From a virus: a stretch of DNA of 27,097 nucleotides. Below the pieces are notes generated by a model, which did not search any database, had not been told where the DNA came from, and saw only the letters and a list, made by a program, of their open reading frames with translations. The stretch covers positions 1 through 27,097 of IMG/VR virus record IMGVR_UViG_3300021085_000173; one strand, written 5' to 3'. Below, piece by piece: positions 3,690 through 27,019 of the stretch. Numbering within the stretch: position 1 is the first letter of the stretch; each line of letters starts with the position of its first letter. Position numbers and translations under genes: made by a program.

Positions 3690-4331
3690 ATGAAAATACT
3701 AAATCTATATGCTTGTTTAGGTGGTAACAGATACAAGTGGAACGAAGTAAAAGAAGATATAGAAGTAACAGCTATTGAACTTGACCCAGAAGCTGCAAGG
3801 TTGTACCAAGAACGTTTTCCGAATGACAAAGTAGTTGTAGCGGATGCACACCAATATTTACTTGACCATTATAAAGAATTTGATTTTATATGGAGTTCCC
3901 CTCCTTGTCCAACGCATAGCAGATCAAGATTTGCAAGGCACGAAACAACAACATCTGTTTATCCAGATATGAAGTTATACCAAGAAATACTATTATTGGA
4001 CAATTACTTTAAAGGAAAATATGTGGTTGAGAATGTTATCCCTTTTTATACTCCTTTAATACCTGCTAAAAAAAGAGGTCGGCATTTATATTGGACTAAC
4101 TTTAATTTACCTAATGATGTTGGAGAAAGAAAAGGTGGTATAATGGAGGGAAAAGATGAGGTTACCCAATGGTGTAAGTTTCATAACTACGACTTTAGAA
4201 AATACAAAGGAAAACAATCAACACAAAAAATGGCAAGAAACCTTGTGGATTATGAAGTTGGTAAAAAAATATTTGAAACAGCTTTAGGTATTATTAGAAA
4301 ACAAGACATTAAACAAACAGAATTATTTTAA
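3690..4331 (+). CDS. Compact C5-cytosine DNA methyltransferase
   Basis: 213 residues, clearly shorter than the 300-400 typical of Dcm-type enzymes. Motifs in order: I, LYACLGGNRYKW (7-17, SAM binding); II, AIELDPEAA (acid at 30); III, VVADAHQY (about 50-55); IV, SSPPCPTHSRSR (69-80) with catalytic Cys73; VI, VVENV (Glu114); VIII, KKRGRHLYW (127-135). Only about 75 residues remain for target recognition and motifs IX-X. It would methylate cytosine at C5, probably protecting phage DNA from host restriction; no cognate restriction gene is adjacent. It follows the ParB-like gene with a one-base gap. Confidence 0.85.
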   Translation: MKILNLYACLGGNRYKWNEVKEDIEVTAIELDPEAARLYQERFPNDKVVVADAHQYLLDHYKEFDFIWSSPPCPTHSRSRFARHETTTSVYPDMKLYQEILLLDNYFKGKYVVENVIPFYTPLIPAKKRGRHLYWTNFNLPNDVGERKGGIMEGKDEVTQWCKFHNYDFRKYKGKQSTQKMARNLVDYEVGKKIFETALGIIRKQDIKQTELF

Positions 4332-17573: not shown

Positions 17574-19328
17574 ATGAATGATTTAAGAGTATTAAATTTA
17601 TCGACTTATACAAGTCCTAAAATAAAAGAAACAAAGACAGATAACTTTGTTGCTTATGGAGAGGACAATAACTACTTTCAGTTTTTAATTGATAGATATA
17701 ATGGTAGTGCTACAAACAATGCTATTATAAATGGAATGTCAGAGATGATATTTGGTAGAGGTTTAGATGCAACAGATAGCAATAGAAAGCCAGAGGCATA
17801 CGCACAAATGATTACTTTGTTTCACGATGATTGTGTAAGAAGATTGTCAAGTGATTTAAAACTAATGGGGCAATGTGCAATGCAAGTTATTTATTCAAAG
17901 GATAGAAAAACGATTGCAAGAGTTGAGCATATACCTGTTGAAACATTACGAGCAGAAAAGTGTAACGAAAAAGGGGAGATAGAAGCGTATTATATGCACC
18001 CAGATTGGGCGAACTATAAAAAGAATGATACTTTAAAAAGAATAGAAGCATTTGGTTATGGTAACGAGCCAATACAAATCTATTATGTAAAACCTTATAA
18101 GGCAGGATACAAATATTATTCTCCAGTAGATTATCAAGGTGGGATACAATATGCAGAATTAGAAGAAGAAATATCTAACTACCATATTAATAACATTATG
18201 AATGGGTTAGCACCAAGTATGTTAATTAACTTTAATAATGGTACACCAGACCCAGAACAAAGACAATTAATAGAAAACAGAATTTATCAAAAGTTTAGTG
18301 GTAGTTCTAATAGTGGTAAGTTTATTTTATCTTTTAACGATGATGCAAATACTGCTGCAAGTATAGAACCAATTCAATTAAGTGATGCACATAACCAATA
18401 CCAATTCCTTTCAGATGAAAGTATGCGTAAAATTATGGTAGCACACCGAGTTGTATCTCCAATGTTATTAGGTGTAAAAGATAGTAGTGGTTTAGGTAAT
18501 AATGCAGACGAATTAAAAACTGCATCTTTATTAATGGATAACACAGTTATTAGACCATTTCAGACACTTTTAATAAATGCCTTTGATGATATATTAGCTT
18601 ACAATGATATTAGCTTAAATCTATACTTTAAAACATTACAACCTTTAGAATTTAAAGAGTTAGATAATGTTGTAGATGGGGAAACAAGAGAAGAGGAAAC
18701 TGGTGTTAAGTTAGCAAAAGAAAACGAGGATTTCAATGACGAAGAAATGCTTAATGCTTTAGATGGAGAAGAAATATCTGACGAGTGGGAGCTTGTAGAG
18801 AAAAGAGAATATTCAGAAGATAACGAAAGCGTAGAAGATTGGGCAGGTAGTTTGGTAAAGGAAAAGAAAAGCACCTTAAATAAATTAGCTGACTTTATTA
18901 AATCAAAACCAAACGACAAAAGTAAATTAGATAAAAGTTTTTACAAGGTTAGATACGAGTATTCAGAAAAGTATTCAAGTGATAACTCAAGAAACTTTTG
19001 TACAACAATGATGGGTAGAACATCAAAGGGTGTTGTTTATAGAAAAGAAGATATAGACCAAGCAAGTTTTAGTGGTGTAAATAAATCATTCGGTCACAAA
19101 GGAAACAACTACTCACTTTTTAAATACAAGGGTGGAGTTAATTGTGGACATTATTGGTCTGAAAACCTTTATAGGTTAAAATCTAAAACTGAAAAGTATA
19201 TATCAAAGGGTAAGGAAGTTGATAGCATACCGAAGAGTTACACACCAAAAGGAGAAGAATATAGGACATCTGAAATAGCACCAAAGGATATGCCTAACAA
19301 TGGACATCACCCAAATTATAAAGGATAA
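17574..19328 (+). CDS. Portal protein with C-terminal Cys/His domain
   Basis: 584 residues. Residues 1-370 look like an HK97/SPP1-type portal: VAYGEDNNYFQFLIDRYNGS, GRGLDAT, the wing and stem (YYSPVDYQGGIQYAELEEEI, SNYHINNIMNGLAPSMLINF), and LLGVKDSSGLGNNADELKTA near the crown. An acidic linker follows (about 370-440). Residues 455-584 form a second domain with RNFCTTMMGRTSKGVVYRKE and FKYKGGVNCGHYWSENLYRL, where Cys476, Cys524, His526 and nearby residues may hold a metal. Portals dodecamerise at one capsid vertex. The fusion is unusual, and in other phages such a domain may be separate or part of a minor head protein. Confidence 0.85.
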   Translation: MNDLRVLNLSTYTSPKIKETKTDNFVAYGEDNNYFQFLIDRYNGSATNNAIINGMSEMIFGRGLDATDSNRKPEAYAQMITLFHDDCVRRLSSDLKLMGQCAMQVIYSKDRKTIARVEHIPVETLRAEKCNEKGEIEAYYMHPDWANYKKNDTLKRIEAFGYGNEPIQIYYVKPYKAGYKYYSPVDYQGGIQYAELEEEISNYHINNIMNGLAPSMLINFNNGTPDPEQRQLIENRIYQKFSGSSNSGKFILSFNDDANTAASIEPIQLSDAHNQYQFLSDESMRKIMVAHRVVSPMLLGVKDSSGLGNNADELKTASLLMDNTVIRPFQTLLINAFDDILAYNDISLNLYFKTLQPLEFKELDNVVDGETREEETGVKLAKENEDFNDEEMLNALDGEEISDEWELVEKREYSEDNESVEDWAGSLVKEKKSTLNKLADFIKSKPNDKSKLDKSFYKVRYEYSEKYSSDNSRNFCTTMMGRTSKGVVYRKEDIDQASFSGVNKSFGHKGNNYSLFKYKGGVNCGHYWSENLYRLKSKTEKYISKGKEVDSIPKSYTPKGEEYRTSEIAPKDMPNNGHHPNYKG

Positions 19329-19331
19329 AAT

Positions 19332-19832
19332 ATGGCAACTGCATTATTTATAAGTAGAACAGATTTAATAAAGAATAGCATCCTTGATGGGAATGTAGAT
19401 ACGGACAAGTTTATACAATTCATTAAGATAGCACAACAAATAGATATCCAAAATTATTTAGGTACTGATTTATACAACAAGATTAGTGCTGATATTATAG
19501 CAGATAATTTAACAGGTGCTTATTTAGATTTGGTAAATGATTATGTACAACCAATGCTAATCCACTATGCGATGATGCAATACCTACCTTTTGCAGCATA
19601 TCAAATTAAGAATGGCGGTATCAGTAAGCACAATTCAGAGAATGCAGAAAGTGTTTCAAAGGATGAGGTTGATTATTTAGTAAATAAGGAAAGAAACTTT
19701 GCAGAGTATTATACTCGTAGATTTATAGATTATATTAGTTTCCACGAAGAAGATTTTCCAGAGTACAATAGTAATAACAATGAGGACATAAGTCCCGATA
19801 CAAATGATTTATTCAATGGATGGGTGTTATAA
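19332..19832 (+). CDS. Head-tail connector-like protein
   Basis: 166 residues, mostly helical. It has the layout of gp6/gp15-type connectors: helix 1 (FISRTDLIKNSI), FIQFIKIAQQIDIQNYLG, the long helix YVQPMLIHYAMMQYLPFAAY, a loop with NGGISKHNSENAESVSKDEV, and a final helix EVDYLVNKERNFAEYYTRRF. The gene begins three bases after the portal stop, the standard position for the connector that binds the portal. The acidic, Asn-rich tail is disordered. Confidence 0.7.
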   Translation: MATALFISRTDLIKNSILDGNVDTDKFIQFIKIAQQIDIQNYLGTDLYNKISADIIADNLTGAYLDLVNDYVQPMLIHYAMMQYLPFAAYQIKNGGISKHNSENAESVSKDEVDYLVNKERNFAEYYTRRFIDYISFHEEDFPEYNSNNNEDISPDTNDLFNGWVL

Positions 19833-19894: not shown

Positions 19895-20470
19895 ATGGCA
19901 AACGAAATATACGATAGCACTTGGTGGGGTAATACGATTGATACTGCATCTTCTATTGGTACATCAACAGAGATGATACAAGGTCAGTTCAATCTTACGA
20001 AGTTAGGAGATGAATTAGTTACTAATGGAAGTTTTGCTACTGATAGTGATTGGATTAAACTTAATGGTACTACAATAAGTGGAGGTGTTGCGAGAGTTGT
20101 CGCTGATGGAAATATTGAAGCTGGTTCAAGTAACTGGACTTTAAAACAAACAGTATTTGAGGAAAATAAAACATACCAAGTAACATTTAGAGCAAGACAA
20201 GTATCTGGTAGTGGAACATTTCAAGTAGGTAGAGATTACTATTCTTTTGTAGACAAAGTTATAACCTCAAGTTTTGTAGAATATAGTTTTACAGTTAATT
20301 CTGAAAGTTTAAATTTTGATGGTTATTTAGTTTTTGGTGGAAGAACAAGTGGAGATGTGTTTGAAGTTGACAACGTATCAGTAAAAGAAGTAAGAGCAAC
20401 AACAGTAGAAGCTAAAAAATGTTTAGCTGATACAATTCATAGAATAGGATTACAAGACATACAAAACTAA
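19895..20470 (+). CDS. Small structural protein with carbohydrate-binding-like domain
   Basis: 191 residues. A conserved-looking head, MANEIYDSTWWGNTIDTASS, and tail, VEAKKCLADTIHRIGLQDIQ, flank a beta-sandwich insert at about 37-165: LGDELVTNGSFATDSDWIKL, ISGGVARVVAD, ending VFEVDNVSVKEV. This insert has the N-G-x-F...W and final V-D-N-V-S-V-(K) marks of CBM 4/9-type jelly-roll modules common in phage adhesins. It sits immediately before the fibre array and probably serves as an adaptor or adhesin. The 62-base gap upstream is A-rich with a weak GTTAAA/TTTAAC inverted repeat. Confidence 0.6.
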   Translation: MANEIYDSTWWGNTIDTASSIGTSTEMIQGQFNLTKLGDELVTNGSFATDSDWIKLNGTTISGGVARVVADGNIEAGSSNWTLKQTVFEENKTYQVTFRARQVSGSGTFQVGRDYYSFVDKVITSSFVEYSFTVNSESLNFDGYLVFGGRTSGDVFEVDNVSVKEVRATTVEAKKCLADTIHRIGLQDIQN

Positions 20471-20475
20471 AAACA

Positions 20476-21753
20476 ATGGCAAAACCAAAATTAGCATTAA
20501 TACCAGCTGCACAAGGCACAAGTTTATACTCCGTACTACCATCGAGTGGTGTGGGAGATTTCAGCTTTACTCGTAGCGGTTCGGCAACAAGAATAAACGC
20601 ACAAGGACTAATAGAAACAGTTGCAAGTGGTGTTTCAAGATTAAACTACCCATTGATTGATGGTGTTGTAAAAGGATGTCCACATCACATTTTAGAGCCA
20701 CAGAGATTGCAGTTAGTACAGTATTCAGAAGATTTTAGTAATTCTTATTGGGGTACAGCAAGAATAGAAACGCCTTATATTGCAGATGTTTTATCGCCAG
20801 ATGGAACTTTAAATGCATATACTTTAGAAATATCAAGCGGACAAACTGGTGGCGGTGGAGTTTTTAAAGGATTATCTGTTACTGGAGATAATAGTTTTTC
20901 TGTATTTGCAAAGAAAAAAACTGCTAATTATTTAGCTTTAGGAGATACTGGATTAACAACTAATGCTGTTTATTTTGATTTAGAAAATGGAGTTGTAGGA
21001 ACTACATATAACGCAACTGGAGAGATACAAGATTTTGGTAATGGGTGGTACAGATGCACAATGAAATACACTTTAACATCTACTGGTAATAAATTTATCT
21101 ATTTATCAAATATAGATGGAACAATAATTGGCGGTGTTGTTGGTGGCGATAGTATTTACATATACGGCGCACAAATTGAAAGTGGTTCTTTTCCAACCTC
21201 TTACATTCCCAACTACGGAACTGCTGCTGGTGTTACTCGTTCAGCTGAAACTGCTACTGGTTCTGGAGATGCAGATACTTTTAATGATAGTGAGGGTGTT
21301 TTGATGGCAGAGATAAGTGCATTAGCTAATGATGGAATAAGAGTAATTACATTATCTAATGGAAGTAATGCGGAAAGAATACTTTTATCTTATAACCAAA
21401 ATGGTAGATTAGATGTAAATATTATTGAAAACGACAGTTATCAAGCTGTTTTTAATTACACAAATATAAATTCAATTGAATTTAATAAAATATTGATTTC
21501 TTATAAGCAAAATGATTTTAAACTTTGGTTAAATGGTTTTCAAGTAGGTAGTGTTGAAAATGGAAACACTCCAGTAGGTCTAAATACATTAAATTTTGGT
21601 GCAACTTATAATGCGTCTGTTGAATCTTTCTACGGTAACACTAAACAACTTCAATACTTTGACACTGCATTAACAAATAGCGAATTAGAACAACTAACGT
21701 CTTGGGTATCTTTTCAAGAGATGGCTGAAGGACAATTATACACAATAGAATAG
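20476..21753 (+). CDS. Fibre/lectin-like protein, paralog 1
   Basis: 425 residues, first of five related genes. The N-terminus (MAKPKLALIPAAQGTSLYSV; FSFTRSGSATRINAQGLIET) differs from the other four before the shared SATRxNxxGLIE block. Then comes a CBM-like jelly roll starting at YSEDFSNSYW (about 83-92), a hinge (TSYIPNYGTAAGVTRSAETA, GSG) at about 240-263, and a LamG/concanavalin A-like domain from about 264 to 405 with KILISYKQNDFKLWLNGFQV. The first block resembles phage head-spike or fibre N-terminal domains. Likely role: an exposed fibre that binds host surface glycans. It follows the small adhesin by five bases. Confidence 0.7.
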   Translation: MAKPKLALIPAAQGTSLYSVLPSSGVGDFSFTRSGSATRINAQGLIETVASGVSRLNYPLIDGVVKGCPHHILEPQRLQLVQYSEDFSNSYWGTARIETPYIADVLSPDGTLNAYTLEISSGQTGGGGVFKGLSVTGDNSFSVFAKKKTANYLALGDTGLTTNAVYFDLENGVVGTTYNATGEIQDFGNGWYRCTMKYTLTSTGNKFIYLSNIDGTIIGGVVGGDSIYIYGAQIESGSFPTSYIPNYGTAAGVTRSAETATGSGDADTFNDSEGVLMAEISALANDGIRVITLSNGSNAERILLSYNQNGRLDVNIIENDSYQAVFNYTNINSIEFNKILISYKQNDFKLWLNGFQVGSVENGNTPVGLNTLNFGATYNASVESFYGNTKQLQYFDTALTNSELEQLTSWVSFQEMAEGQLYTIE

Positions 21754-21755
21754 AT

Positions 21756-22949
21756 ATGGCACAAACTTTAAAATTCGGTAACGGAACTTGGGCAACTAAA
21801 AAGGGTTCTACTCTTGCTTATAATGATGAGGATGGAAACTATAAACCATTACCATTTACATATACTGGTGCTGGTAAAGGTACAAGAGTTAACAAAGAGG
21901 GTTTAATTGAGGTTGTAGAAAACGACAGACCAAGAATAGATTATTTAGATAGCGAAGATGGTGTATTTCTTTTGGAAAAGGCATCGACAAATTTGGTTAC
22001 TTATTCAGAAGATTTTAGTAATGCTGCTTGGACTAAAACTGGAGCAACTACTGTTGCATCTAATACAGTTATTTCTCCAGATGGTAATTTAAATGGAAGC
22101 ACAATAAGCGGTTTAACTGGTAGTGGTAGTAATGATATTTATTTTATAACTGGAGTAAATCCAGCAAGTAAAACATATTGTGCATCGGTTTATTTAAAAG
22201 GAGAGGGTACGTTGCGACTACAAACATCAAACAACGTAAATCAAGGTATTTCTAAAACTATTACTCTAACAAGCAACTGGAAAAGACATTCAGTTATAGG
22301 AACTTTTAATTCTACATCTGGTAATTTATCAGTTACAATCGATGACACTACTGCAACTGCTACTCAATTTGATATTTGGGGAGCAATGCTTGAGGAAAAT
22401 TCAATAGCATCTTCATACATCCCAACACAAGGCACAATCCAAACTAGAGTGGCTGAAACTGCAAGTGGTTCTGGAAACTCGGAAGTATTTAATAGTTCAG
22501 AGGGGGTATTGTTTGTAGAAATGAGTGCTTCTGATAATAATTCAAGAATATCATTAAGTGATGGAAGTACAAGCAACAGAGTATCTTTTAAAATTACTGA
22601 TGATAATATAGATTTTCAATACAGAGTAGGAGGGAATTATTCATATAGAGTAAATGTGGATGTAAATAATTATTTAAATAATAAGATACTAATGTCATAT
22701 AATAATGGGTTATTTGTTGGTTATTTAAACGGATTTCCTATAAGTAATAAAATTAGTGGAGTTTCTTTAGCTGATGGGGTTGTAAATAGGTTAAATCTAA
22801 ATGATGGAGATGCTTCCGATGGTTTTAAAGGTAGGATAAAAGAAATTGGCTACTACGATGAAATTTTAACAGACGAAGAATTGGAGTATATGACAAGTTA
22901 TAGGTCATTATCAGCAATGTTAAAAGAATTAAATATAAAAGCATTATAA
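21756..22949 (+). CDS. Fibre/lectin-like protein, paralog 2
   Basis: 397 residues. It shares with paralogs 3-5 the start TLKFGNGTWATKKGSTLAYN and the block VNKEGLIEVV (46-54). The CBM-like domain is at about 82-215 (YSEDFSNAAWTKTG; VISPDGN), the hinge at 216-240 (IASSYIPTQGTIQTRVAETA) and the LamG-like domain at about 241-365. The C-terminal 35 residues (DEILTDEELEYMTSYRSLSA, then MLKELNIKAL) are nearly identical to those of paralog 3. The middle is divergent. The 3' end forms part of a direct repeat with the paralog 3/4 junction. Confidence 0.7.
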   Translation: MAQTLKFGNGTWATKKGSTLAYNDEDGNYKPLPFTYTGAGKGTRVNKEGLIEVVENDRPRIDYLDSEDGVFLLEKASTNLVTYSEDFSNAAWTKTGATTVASNTVISPDGNLNGSTISGLTGSGSNDIYFITGVNPASKTYCASVYLKGEGTLRLQTSNNVNQGISKTITLTSNWKRHSVIGTFNSTSGNLSVTIDDTTATATQFDIWGAMLEENSIASSYIPTQGTIQTRVAETASGSGNSEVFNSSEGVLFVEMSASDNNSRISLSDGSTSNRVSFKITDDNIDFQYRVGGNYSYRVNVDVNNYLNNKILMSYNNGLFVGYLNGFPISNKISGVSLADGVVNRLNLNDGDASDGFKGRIKEIGYYDEILTDEELEYMTSYRSLSAMLKELNIKAL

Positions 22950-23187
22950 AATGGCAAAACAATTAAAATTTGGTAATGGAGAATGGTATGGAGCAGATGG
23001 CTCTATCCTTGCATACAACGATTTAAACGATAACTATAAGCCACTTCCTTTCAAATTTGAGCGTGGAAGTTCAGCAACAAGAGTAAATAAAGAAGGGTTG
23101 ATTGAATTAGTTGGTAGTAATCAACCAAGAGTAGATTATAAAGACAGTAGTGATGGTGTGTTTCTTTTGGAGAAGGAAGCTACAAAT
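22857..23187 (+). repeat. Direct repeat copy A at the paralog 2/3 junction
   Basis: This covers the 3' end of paralog 2, the one-base gap and the first about 79 codons of paralog 3. It matches 24064-24394 at an offset of 1207 bases with about nine mismatches by eye. Similarity drops sharply beyond both ends, where the variable domains begin. Confidence 0.8.
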
Positions 23188-24156
23188 TTAGTTAATTATA
23201 GTAGTGATTTATCCGTTCTGTCTAAAGTATCAGTAGGAACTGCATCTTCCCCAGTTGCAACTGCAAATTACGATATTGCACCAGATGGAACAATGACTGC
23301 AACGAGAGTTGTTTTTGATTTAAACGGAGGCAATACATATAACGATAGAAGTATATTAAGACAAGCTATACCAGTAGGTAGTAATTATTACTTTTCTATT
23401 TATGTAAAAAGTACAAATGGAACAGAACAAAAAGTTTTTTGGCACGATGGAGGAGAAGTAACGCCAGTAACAGTAACTAATGAATGGAAAAGAATTACTT
23501 ATGACGCAAGAAGTAATGTATCTTATGGAGGAATTGCTTTAAATGGATTAGATGGTGTAGATACATCTGACATTTTAGTATGGGGTTTTCAAATAGAAAC
23601 TGGAAACGTAGCATCTTCCTACATCCCAACCTCTGGCTCAACAGTACAACGTGCTGCTGAAACCGCTTCTGGTTCTGGTAGTTCTGGAGTTTTTAATGAT
23701 AGTGAGGGAATTCTATATGCCAACATAGCTGCGAATGCTGATGATTCAACTTATAGAAGTATAAGTATCAATAATGGCTCAACATCAAACTATGTACAAA
23801 TAGGGTTTGACTCATCTGGTTCAAATAAAATATTTGGTAACATTAGACCAAGTGGTAGTTCTTTTTCAGTAACTACAAGTAATATAGTCAATTTTAATAA
23901 GGTTTTAATAAAATATAAAGTTAATGATTGCTCTCTTTGGATTAATGGATTCGAAGTTGGTATTGACTTAAACGGAGTAGTTCCTTCTGGATTAAATGAA
24001 TTAGGTTTTGATACTGGAGGTGTTGCAACTTGGTATGGTAAAGCAAAAGAAATAGCATACTATGATGAAATTTTGACAGATGAAGAATTGGAGTATATGA
24101 CAAGTTATAGGTCATTATCAGAAATGTTAAAAGAATTAAATATAAAAGCATTATAA
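22951..24156 (+). CDS. Fibre/lectin-like protein, paralog 3
   Basis: 401 residues with the same layout: anchor module (MAKQLKFGNGEWYGADGSIL ... SATRVNKEGLIELV), CBM-like domain, hinge (SSYIPTSGSTVQRAAETASG, SG) and LamG-like domain ending in VLIKYKVNDCSLWINGFEVG. Its first about 80 residues are nearly identical to paralog 4 and its last 35 to paralog 2, while the middle matches neither. It is therefore a cassette-like mosaic. It starts one base after the paralog 2 stop. Function as an adhesin or fibre is inferred from the domain types. Confidence 0.7.
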   Translation: MAKQLKFGNGEWYGADGSILAYNDLNDNYKPLPFKFERGSSATRVNKEGLIELVGSNQPRVDYKDSSDGVFLLEKEATNLVNYSSDLSVLSKVSVGTASSPVATANYDIAPDGTMTATRVVFDLNGGNTYNDRSILRQAIPVGSNYYFSIYVKSTNGTEQKVFWHDGGEVTPVTVTNEWKRITYDARSNVSYGGIALNGLDGVDTSDILVWGFQIETGNVASSYIPTSGSTVQRAAETASGSGSSGVFNDSEGILYANIAANADDSTYRSISINNGSTSNYVQIGFDSSGSNKIFGNIRPSGSSFSVTTSNIVNFNKVLIKYKVNDCSLWINGFEVGIDLNGVVPSGLNELGFDTGGVATWYGKAKEIAYYDEILTDEELEYMTSYRSLSEMLKELNIKAL

Positions 24157-24394
24157 AATGGCAAAACAATTAAAATTTGGTAATGGCGAATGGTATGGAG
24201 CAGATGGCTCTATCCTTGCATACAACGATTTAAACGATAACTATAAGCCGCTTCCTTTCAAATTTGAGCGTGGAAGTTCAGCAACAAGAGTAAATAAAGA
24301 AGGGTTGATTGAAGTAGTTGGTGGTAATCAACCAAGAATAGATTATAAAGACAGTAGTGATGGTGTGTTTCTTTTGGAGAAGGCAGCTACAAAT
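24064..24394 (+). repeat. Direct repeat copy B at the paralog 3/4 junction
   Basis: This covers the 3' end of paralog 3, the one-base gap and the 5' end of paralog 4, matching 22857-23187 almost base for base, including the intergenic AAATGGC context. Synonymous and conservative changes dominate the few differences, which implies a recent duplication or continuing recombination. Confidence 0.8.
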
Positions 24395-25441
24395 TCAATT
24401 ACTTATTCGGAAGATTTTAGTAATTCAGTATGGAGTACTTGGCAATCAACTAAAACATTATCAAATAACATTAATCCAAAAGGAACAAATGGTTACTACG
24501 AAATTTCACATACTGGAAGTTCATCAGATAATCCAAATACAAGATTAACAAATGTTTCTTTAAATGGTTCTTATACGTTAAGTTTCTTTATTAAAATAAA
24601 TCAGTCAAGGTATATTTCTTTATCAATAGAAGATTATAATGGAGATAGAGCAAGAGTGTACTTTGATACAATAAATAAAACATTTACAACAATTAGTAAT
24701 GTAGGTTCTCCTATAACTAATACATCTTATAGTGAATTTTCAAATGGTTGGATTAGAATATCACTATCAGTAAACTTATTAAATGCAGTTTACGATGAAG
24801 TAGGTATAGGTATATACAACCCAAGTGGTTCTTTTCCATCTGCAAGTGGAGAAGTTATTTCTGTTTTTGGAGCAATGATTGAACAAGGCAGTTACGCATC
24901 TTCATACATCCCAACACAAGGTTCTACTCAAACTCGTTTAGCTGAAACTGCTAATGGTTCTGGTAGTTCTGGAGCGTTTAATGATAGTGAAGGTGTACTA
25001 TTTGCTAATATACAAGGATTAAATGAAGTTTATAGATTAGGTATTTCAGAAAATGCATCAACCTCTAATAGAATTTTAATAGGTCAAAGTAGTAGCTTTT
25101 TATCATATGTAGTTACCTCTGGTTCAACACCAGTTGTAAATAATAATGTTAGTGGATATGGATTAAATCAAAAATTAAAAATAGCTGCTAAATACAAGCA
25201 GAACGATTTCGCTTTATGGGTAAATGGTTTTGAGGTTGTTACAGTTTCAAGTGGTAATACACCAACTAATTTAAACTCATTAGATTTTAAGGGTCAAGGG
25301 GCTAATGCTTACATAAAAACAAAAGAATTAGCATACTATGATGAAGTTTTGACAGACCTTGAATTAGAAACGCTTACATCTTACAGAACTTGGGAAGAAA
25401 TGGTAAACGAATTAAACTTAAATATTATACACAATGAGTAA
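24158..25441 (+). CDS. Fibre/lectin-like protein, paralog 4
   Basis: 427 residues. The anchor module is almost the same as in paralog 3. The CBM-like part begins YSEDFSNSVWSTWQ and is longer (about 25 residues more). The hinge (ASSYIPTQGSTQTRLAETAN) contains a 26-base stretch (24896-24921) identical to paralog 2. The LamG-like part includes LKIAAKYKQNDFALWVNGFE. The C-terminus (YYDEVLTDLELETLTSYRTW) has diverged from paralogs 2 and 3. The stop overlaps the next start by 8 bases. Confidence 0.7.
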   Translation: MAKQLKFGNGEWYGADGSILAYNDLNDNYKPLPFKFERGSSATRVNKEGLIEVVGGNQPRIDYKDSSDGVFLLEKAATNSITYSEDFSNSVWSTWQSTKTLSNNINPKGTNGYYEISHTGSSSDNPNTRLTNVSLNGSYTLSFFIKINQSRYISLSIEDYNGDRARVYFDTINKTFTTISNVGSPITNTSYSEFSNGWIRISLSVNLLNAVYDEVGIGIYNPSGSFPSASGEVISVFGAMIEQGSYASSYIPTQGSTQTRLAETANGSGSSGAFNDSEGVLFANIQGLNEVYRLGISENASTSNRILIGQSSSFLSYVVTSGSTPVVNNNVSGYGLNQKLKIAAKYKQNDFALWVNGFEVVTVSSGNTPTNLNSLDFKGQGANAYIKTKELAYYDEVLTDLELETLTSYRTWEEMVNELNLNIIHNE

Positions 25442-26618
25442 TACACTTAAACTGGGTAACGGACAATGGGCAACTGGTAAAGATACCTTGCTTGGGTACA
25501 ATTCAGAAAATAACAATATAAAGCCATTACCCTTTTCATTCAGCAGAGATAGTAGTGCTACTGTTGTAAACAAAGATGGTTTAATCGAAACTGTTGGTAG
25601 TGGAAAACCAAGAATAGATTTTAAGGATAATACTAAAGGTGCTTTGTTGTTAGAGCCAGAGAGGAGAAATATAGTTTTAACAAGTGCAAGTGGTACTTAT
25701 GGTAATAATCCAGCATCTGAAACAAATATAATTTCTCCAGATGGCACAAACAACGCAGTAATACCAACCCCCAATGGTAATTCTGATAGATACCAATACA
25801 CAATAAGCGGAGGAACATATTCTACAAACACAAAACTGGCTTATTCTTGGTATAGAAAAAGAATATCCACACCTATTGATGTTTCTAAAATAGGAGATTT
25901 ACTTTTAGCTTCTATACAAAACGCTACACAAGTAGGTTCAACAACTAAAATAGAAAGTGATGTAAATGGTTTTGATAGATTTCAAGCTATTTTTAATATA
26001 ACTGATGGTTCTGCTACAAGTATTATTAGAGGGTATTTTGGTTCAGTTTTAGGTATAGGTAATTCATCAGTTGCTTACTGGGGACACCAAGTCGAACAAG
26101 GCAGTTACGCTACATCGTATATTCCTACATCTGGAAGTGCAGTAACGAGGGTTGCAGATAGTTGTAGTAATGGTGCTAATGACCAAGTAATAAATTCAAC
26201 AGAGGGTGTATTGTATTATGAAGCAACTTATATTGATGGAAGTGATTATAATTCCATAACTGTTTCAAATTCATCTGGTTCTGAAAAATCAAGAACTTGG
26301 TATGATGATACTAATTTAATTTTTGCAAGTTATGTTAATAATGTTAATCAAACATTTATAGCATATCCTATTTTTAAAAATATAAATTATAAAATAGCTA
26401 TAAGATATAAGTTAAATGATTTTGCTTTGTATGTAAATGGAAATAAAGCAACAAATATAGTGGTAAATTTAGGTGGTGTTTCTCCACAAAATTCATACAA
26501 TAAATTAAGTTTTAATAGTGGAGATATTTATAGTAAATTCTTTGGAAACATAAAAGATTTAAAATTATACAACACCGCATTAACAGACCAAGAATTAATT
26601 GCATTAACAACAATTTAA
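25434..26618 (+). CDS. Fibre/lectin-like protein, paralog 5
   Basis: 394 residues and the most divergent of the anchor-sharing group: MSNTLKLGNGQWATGKDTLL, FSRDSSATVVNKDGLIETVG, CBM-like middle with SPDGTNNAV, hinge (YATSYIPTSGSAVTRVADSC, SNG) and LamG-like domain with IAIRYKLNDFALYVNGNKAT. It ends shortly after LYNTALTDQELIALTTI, lacking the extra 20-25 C-terminal residues of paralogs 2-4. The ATG overlaps the stop of paralog 4. It is the last member of the array. Confidence 0.7.
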   Translation: MSNTLKLGNGQWATGKDTLLGYNSENNNIKPLPFSFSRDSSATVVNKDGLIETVGSGKPRIDFKDNTKGALLLEPERRNIVLTSASGTYGNNPASETNIISPDGTNNAVIPTPNGNSDRYQYTISGGTYSTNTKLAYSWYRKRISTPIDVSKIGDLLLASIQNATQVGSTTKIESDVNGFDRFQAIFNITDGSATSIIRGYFGSVLGIGNSSVAYWGHQVEQGSYATSYIPTSGSAVTRVADSCSNGANDQVINSTEGVLYYEATYIDGSDYNSITVSNSSGSEKSRTWYDDTNLIFASYVNNVNQTFIAYPIFKNINYKIAIRYKLNDFALYVNGNKATNIVVNLGGVSPQNSYNKLSFNSGDIYSKFFGNIKDLKLYNTALTDQELIALTTI

Positions 26619-26668: not shown

Positions 26669-27019
26669 ATGAAAATCGGTAAATATCAATTCGACAGTAG
26701 AGAAGCAGCACAAACAAAGATTGATGCTTTAGGTACAGAAACAGATGAGGATGGAAACGAGTATCCAACTCACAAACACACAATCGTACATTTAGGAAAC
26801 ATTGTACTAACCCCAGCAGTAATTGACGAAGATGGAGAAGTAGAAACAGAAGCAGTATTATCTGACGATTGGCACGTTGATGTGTTATGGTCTGGATTAG
26901 AACCTGATGAAGATGGAACTATTAGCCACCCTTATGGATGGGCTGGTAAAGCAGTTGACATTGATGGGGATGGTGTACACGCTTTCTTTGGATTAAGCTA
27001 CGATGCTTTAAAATTCTAA
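26669..27019 (+). CDS. Small acidic hypothetical protein (116 aa)
   Basis: 116 residues starting MKIGKYQFDSREAAQTKIDA. It is acidic, with strands such as HKHTIVHLGNIVLTPAVIDE and DWHVDVLWSGLEPDEDGTIS, and it ends GVHAFFGLSYDALKF. Codon choice (ATC, TTC, AAC) resembles that of the major capsid more than that of the fibre genes, hinting at high expression. I have the impression of similar proteins downstream of phage fibre genes, but their function is unknown. It could be a minor virion protein. Confidence 0.65.
   Translation: MKIGKYQFDSREAAQTKIDALGTETDEDGNEYPTHKHTIVHLGNIVLTPAVIDEDGEVETEAVLSDDWHVDVLWSGLEPDEDGTISHPYGWAGKAVDIDGDGVHAFFGLSYDALKF

Follow-up and report, generated by a model that had tools for sequence, protein, structure and literature searches.

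Why does a phage carry five consecutive fibre-like genes of the same plan, and how are such arrays built and changed? The question is raised by a virus record of 27,097 nt, IMGVR_UViG_3300021085_000173, which was analysed over its whole length and is called the window here. Its genes g26 to g30 occupy positions 20476-26618, and a preliminary description had presented them as a variable set of adhesins. Comparison with a set of 397 loci (cited by L numbers where one has to be singled out) makes it probable that the array is a polycistronic set of virion-attached carbohydrate-binding fibres, related to the head-spike fibre of the Rhodobacter capsulatus gene transfer agent (RcGTA), and that it has been extended and re-assorted by homologous recombination. 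The genes, domains and repeats of the array and the neighbouring genes g23-g25 and g31 are all on the + strand.

The five genes are true paralogs with conserved ends and divergent binding domains. They are intact open reading frames (ORFs) of 425, 397, 401, 427 and 394 amino acids, found at 20476..21753 (g26), 21756..22949 (g27), 22951..24156 (g28), 24158..25441 (g29) and 25434..26618 (g30). The gaps between them are, in order, 2, 1, 1 and -8 nt. With every gene intact and adjoining or overlapping the next, co-expression seems likely, and several of the products would be incorporated in the virion. An alignment of the proteins over their full length has 51 invariant columns. Each of them matches NF048003, the GTA/phage head-spike fibre model (E 3e-20 to 1e-34; 73.6-120.7 bits against a cut-off of 36 bits) and phrog_5939, labelled 'tail protein' (E 1.9e-53 to 2.4e-29), and the claim of five consecutive genes of 394-427 codons sharing one plan is thus borne out. 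So is the claim that the ends and a central block are conserved while the binding domains diverge: within the window the SYIPT block is 44-74% identical, compared with 16-23% for the jelly roll and 23-39% for the LamG module. The first 51 residues of g28 and g29 are 100% identical, and a C-terminal stretch is 97% identical between g27 and g28.

Each protein is predicted to consist of a short N-terminal attachment segment, a jelly roll of the head-spike-fibre kind, and a LamG-like lectin domain. The N-terminal segment was described earlier as an anchor module. An N-terminal segment is indeed present, and there are two classes of it, type A in g26 and type B in g27-g30. It is short, as homology to the head-spike fibre already starts at about residue 31 of the array proteins (located in g29); in g26 the alignment places the type A segment at residues 1-30 (20476..20565). 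The jelly rolls follow at 20692..21246 in g26 (NF048003, SYIPN included, E 5.0e-37), 21969..22454 in g27 (E 5.7e-34), 23164..23658 in g28 (E 5.0e-32), 24371..24940 in g29 and 25647..26156 in g30 (E 1.2e-22). The SYIPT block had been interpreted as a hinge. It is conserved as stated, and because the matches to NF048003 and to Rcc01080, the RcGTA head-spike fibre, extend through it, it forms the end of the jelly roll together with a short linker and is not an independent hinge.

The evidence for a LamG domain differs among the five genes. The domain of g26 (21292..21630) is the only one over the Pfam cut-off (PF13385, E 9.6e-7), that of g30 (26202..26495) is below it (E 6.6e-5), and the Pfam scan found no LamG in g27-g29. 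An AlphaFold2 model of g29 (mean predicted local distance difference test score, pLDDT, 86.7; predicted template modelling score 0.76) has beta-rich domains, with less certainty for the N-terminal 40 residues, and places a second beta-sandwich at the LamG-like position (24989..25318). The corresponding domains are at 22500..22826 in g27 and 23704..24033 in g28, where the fold is assigned by alignment to g29. Weak profile matches over the C-terminal part are to sialidase and arabinanase chains.

Among proteins of solved structure, the nearest relative of the array proteins is Rcc01080. A profile of 100 array members matches it with E 5.6e-53 over profile positions 31-259. The same profile matches gp45 of phage E217 and gp46 of phage Pa193 over the jelly roll only (E 2e-23 and 4e-23), and these two are also the top Foldseek matches. 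A Foldseek search of the PDB gave no whole-chain match (best TM-score 0.38-0.40), and single domains resemble CBM40, galectins and laminin LG. The array proteins would bind sugars, and they may be displayed simultaneously. Rcc01080 attaches through its N-terminal residues 2-10 to a base pentamer and binds the capsule (PMC7296036, PMC10218006). Because the RcGTA fibre is held by its first ten residues, types A and B may be two attachment signals. A PDB sequence search found no homolog of an RcGTA-like spike base among g24, g25, g20, g21 and g31; such a base may have an unrelated sequence.

The distribution of domains among viruses indicates that the jelly roll and the LamG domain move independently. 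When 229 unique array genes were compared pairwise, with the jelly roll counted as shared at 75% or more, 62 pairs shared a jelly roll, and in 54 of them LamG identity was below 50%. Conversely, the jelly roll was below 40% in 27 of the 37 pairs sharing a LamG domain. These exchanges crossed the divide between types A and B in 15 of the 54 cases with a shared jelly roll and in 5 of the 27 with a shared LamG domain. Genes of the window take part. The LamG domain of g27 is 97% identical in amino acids to that of gene 2 of L086, while the jelly rolls are unrelated, and near codon 256 the DNA identity of the two genes rises abruptly to 100%, from a level of about 60-70%. The jelly roll of g29 is 92% identical to that of the type A gene 1 of L202 and L203 and 90% identical to that of the type B gene 3 of L204; outside the jelly roll, the DNA of g29 and L202 is about 50% identical. 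Four pairs of loci (L025/L026, L165/L166, L165/L167 and L179/L191) have upstream DNA that is 98-99.8% identical and arrays that differ in content. In pairs with near-identical flanks the sequences break where the jelly roll begins, within the SYIPT block, and where one gene ends and the next begins. Both binding domains are thus swapped at the conserved blocks, as expected of a variable adhesin-like set. Across the 397 loci, copy number and content vary, and there are signs of recombination at these blocks, which counts for the earlier description and not against it.

Since the nearest relative of known structure belongs to a head spike, a tail fibre cannot be assumed, and the array proteins could be general head decorations that stick virions to mucus or polysaccharide and do not set host range. 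RcGTA head spikes help transfer and are non-essential (PMC10218006), as such a role would imply. However, both lectin domains turn over strongly beside structural genes that are about 95% conserved, which is typical of host recognition, and relatives carry tail-protein annotations. A role limited to decoration is possible but unlikely, and the exchange of domains may affect host range.

The window has an extreme number of copies. In 91 arrays bracketed by g24 on the left and g31 on the right, there is one gene in 30, two in 38 and three in 20, and the window is alone in having five intact genes. Among viruses sharing 95% portal identity with the window, copy numbers are one (L008), two (L012) and three (L009), and the array of phage P12024S has one gene. 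Apparent arrays of four and five genes (L179/L210 and L199/L213) were rejected as shorter arrays with broken reading frames; L210 and L213 are the four- and five-gene entries among the 91. As the preliminary description implied, five is exceptional, and relatives have one to three.

The additional gene copies of the window may include a recent gain. A junction repeat of 362 bp is present twice, spanning the 3' end of g27 and the 5' end of g28 (22838..23199) and again the 3' end of g28 and the 5' end of g29 (24045..24406), so that the variable core of g28 lies between the copies. They are 95.6% identical, with 16 mismatches and a longest exact run of 64 bp. No comparable repeat was found in 40 other arrays of at least three genes. 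This looks like the scar of an unequal crossover, because crossover between the misaligned junctions of two related viruses leaves an additional in-frame gene and two non-identical copies of the junction. In the proposed mechanism, related viruses in a co-infected cell would offer patches of homology at the end of one gene and the start of the next, in the N-terminal part that precedes the jelly roll, and in the SYIPT block. Equal crossover or gene conversion at these patches would swap a jelly roll or a LamG domain in frame, and unequal crossover at gene junctions would add or remove whole genes. The window would be a snapshot of a recent gain around g28, and recombination between the two copies of the repeat would delete g28 again.

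Some relatives have homing endonuclease genes at array junctions. Gaps of 500-720 bp in or beside their arrays contain HNH (NUMOD4-HNH_3) or GIY-YIG-like (NUMOD3/NUMOD1) genes. Free-standing genes of this kind are located at junctions in eight loci (L084:5328-5831, L118:7520-8017, L172:7456-7998, L181:7458-7994, L185:4847-5350, L191:5436-5978, L014:2864-3493 and L031:15584-16192). Twelve of 16 distinct endonuclease ORFs of the relatives are within the array block, eight of these twelve between genes 1 and 2, in a census that is biased because its seeds came mostly from array gaps. In a repeat of the search, 36 whole records were scanned with a profile of the NUMOD4 family, and positions were converted from locus ranges; all five matches were in the array block, which makes up 15% of the sequence (p ~9e-5). 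Junction endonucleases may raise the rate of recombination in some relatives, or they may merely shelter at the junctions. A literature search found no direct precedent for endonucleases driving fibre exchange.

Misassembly could account for the array of five genes and for some of the apparent exchange, if co-occurring strains were mis-joined through conserved blocks. The window is a metagenome contig with the sole five-gene array, and the blocks are alike between strains. Strain mixing does occur: L179 and L191 are on one contig of 58,119 bp (IMGVR_UViG_3300046167_000289), which has two arrays and two ERF genes, separated by about 37 kb. The DNA upstream of the two arrays is 99.8% identical, and their contents are unlike. 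This contig is a concatemer or a strain mixture. However, the exact run in the junction repeat does not exceed 64 bp, which makes a mis-join by long k-mers unlikely. Shared domains are below 97% identity in 45 of the 54 jelly-roll pairs and 25 of the 27 LamG pairs, mostly at 76-96%, which shows that a single assembled sequence was not counted twice. As most are also on different contigs, and array exchange is seen among many contigs and samples, the exchange itself is argued to be real. An assembly artefact is therefore considered improbable as the source of the pattern.

The two N-terminal types have a fixed order in the arrays. N-terminal profile scores split into two separate groups, A and B. 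Over 279 virus groups with array genes, counted without correction for shared ancestry, the first gene in groups with at least two genes is type A in 128 of 148 (19 unclassified and 1 type B), and later genes are type B in 166 cases and type A in 26. All 30 single-gene arrays that are bracketed on both sides have type A. These counts agree with an anchoring type that is present whenever secondary types are, as in anchor-branched systems of several receptor-binding proteins (RBPs). Type B seems to depend on type A or on its position. A more far-reaching proposal is extensible docking, in which a type A fibre founds the complex, any number of type B fibres, each with two lectin slots that combine freely, can be added, and junction endonucleases drive exchange and changes in host recognition in a large group of marine phages of flavobacteria. 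Taken as a whole, this proposal is speculative and rather unlikely to hold in full.

A further possibility is cassette switching, in which each virion displays one fibre and the other genes are silent donors for recombination. Conserved ends and a conserved block would suit such a system. On the other hand, every gene has a start of its own, is complete as an ORF and abuts the preceding gene, and single-gene arrays are never type B, so the types are not interchangeable slots. A diversity-generating retroelement was rejected, as RVT_1 was found in 0 of 38 records. Switching is thus quite improbable. Ordinary duplication, with one fibre gene copied in place four times, its binding domains diverged by selection and its ends held by constraint or gene conversion, would account for contiguous paralogs and for the near-identical termini of g27, g28 and g29, but it is very improbable because domain identity is no higher within arrays than between them, near-identical domains are found in other viruses at other positions and behind other N-termini, and no array has two near-identical binding domains. 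Since domains within an array are no closer than domains of different arrays, arrays appear to grow by gaining foreign units and not by self-copying.

Several observations weigh against the reading of the array as recombining, virion-attached lectin fibres. The intact five-gene state and the junction repeat have each been seen once, in the window. The window itself has no endonuclease gene, and the ERF annealing recombinase was not found in the window fragment, while it is present in 11 of 38 records. The fibres may be on the head or on the tail, and the label of the PHROG family is tail. Finally, the relatives other than P12024S are all metagenome contigs, and short-read strain mixing could make some of them chimeras.

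The array is part of a structural gene region, and the virus is probably a marine flavobacterial phage. The window encodes a 5'-3' exonuclease, ParB-like proteins, a terminase, a maturation protease, a portal protein, a DUF6712 protein, the array and g31. The portal gene g23 (17574..19328; phrog_33693, E 6.6e-102) was used as the yardstick of virus relatedness, and its product is 93-96% identical to those of the closest relatives. The array block is bordered on the left by g24 of the DUF6712 family (19332..19832; PF20459, E 1.3e-25) and on the right by g31 (26669..27019; phrog_18574, E 4e-8), which follows the array in relatives; both borders are kept. The only isolated relatives by portal are the Nonlabens phages P12024S and P12024L, with 34% identity across the whole portal, and the host is therefore likely to belong to the Flavobacteriaceae. 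A prophage origin was rejected, as no relative turned up when 84,980 species genomes were searched with the portal. The array profile gave one match in the same genomes, on a contig of a Flavobacteriaceae metagenome-assembled genome (L164), which is probably a binned phage contig. Elsewhere in the window, an ORF of 213 amino acids at 3690-4331 resembles C5 cytosine methylases. Its match to the Pfam model is confined to the N-terminal quarter, and the ORF may be truncated.

The gene upstream of the array is a candidate for a further variable sugar-binding protein. The product of g25 (19895..20470, 191 amino acids) has a lectin-like insert of about 120 amino acids, judged by eye to be CBM4_9-like, between a kept WWG N-terminus and a C-terminal VEAxKCLAD motif. 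In view of this insert, the block arguably contains six sugar-binding genes. The protein in this slot has about 60 amino acids in most relatives, and the long form is found in the window and eight others. Its AlphaFold2 model has low confidence (pLDDT 60.8) and is beta-rich with a C-terminal helix. Other lineages have proteins of 200-850 amino acids in this slot with a similar RVxxDGGxxExxxC-like C-terminal motif. In a sister lineage a large protein of 567-854 amino acids occupies the g25 slot before the array genes (L063:12067-14631, L065:12341-14401 and L058:3332-5317), and a scan of two of these large proteins gave no Pfam match. The g25-type motif is also present in P12024S gp09 (L163:5953-6552), which belongs to phrog_19091, the family of window gene g21. 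This suggests a portable tag carried by structural proteins.

Arrays of this kind have potential uses in the study of host recognition. The group is one of uncultured viruses with hundreds of natural alleles and readable exchange joints, so that measurement can replace inference in tracing how host recognition evolves, domain by domain. From the fixed order of A then B follows a prediction on fibre assembly that can be tested, and the junction endonucleases offer a route to ask whether selfish genes speed the evolution of host recognition. Domain shuffling of RBPs, island-like variation among marine phages in the genes for host recognition, and multi-protein receptor-binding complexes are established. 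A literature search found no lectin-fibre arrays described in flavobacterial phages, and the combination of same-plan tandem fibres, two domain slots, A-then-B order, a length of one to five genes and junction endonucleases was not found in the literature searched.

Known systems share separate features with the array. Nonlabens phage P12024S (Inhavirus) has the same neighbourhood of portal, DUF6712, fibre, g31-like and endolysin genes, and its gp10 is a type A protein with the same jelly roll. It differs in having one copy, of 555 amino acids, and a portal that is 34% identical. Rcc01080 (GhsB) of RcGTA shares homology that begins at residue 31 and extends through the jelly roll, has an N-terminal attachment segment and binds polysaccharide. 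It is, however, a protein of 325 amino acids and the sole spike fibre protein, while the arrays have one to five tandem genes, a C-terminal LamG-like domain and another N-terminus. The Pseudomonas phage baseplate proteins E217 gp45 and Pa193 gp46 have the jelly roll alone in common and a structural role in the baseplate. The multi-RBP systems of Klebsiella phage phiK64-1 and of the Ackermannviridae (tailspike proteins TSP1-4) also have clustered RBPs, in which one N-terminal type anchors and another attaches the others, and tsp genes recombine upon acquisition (PMC6872550, PMC11414711). Theirs are depolymerase or tailspike domains with T4gp10-like docking domains, none of which was seen in the array, and the genes are not repeats of the same plan; Pfam, PHROG and NCBIfam scans found no T4gp10-like docking domain in g25-g30. 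In metaviromic islands, host-recognition genes are swapped between near-identical marine phages (PMC3909814), and receptor-binding domains are shuffled among RBPs (PMC10684548). The array differs from both in having two independently moving domains per gene, a variable length, and an order of A then B.

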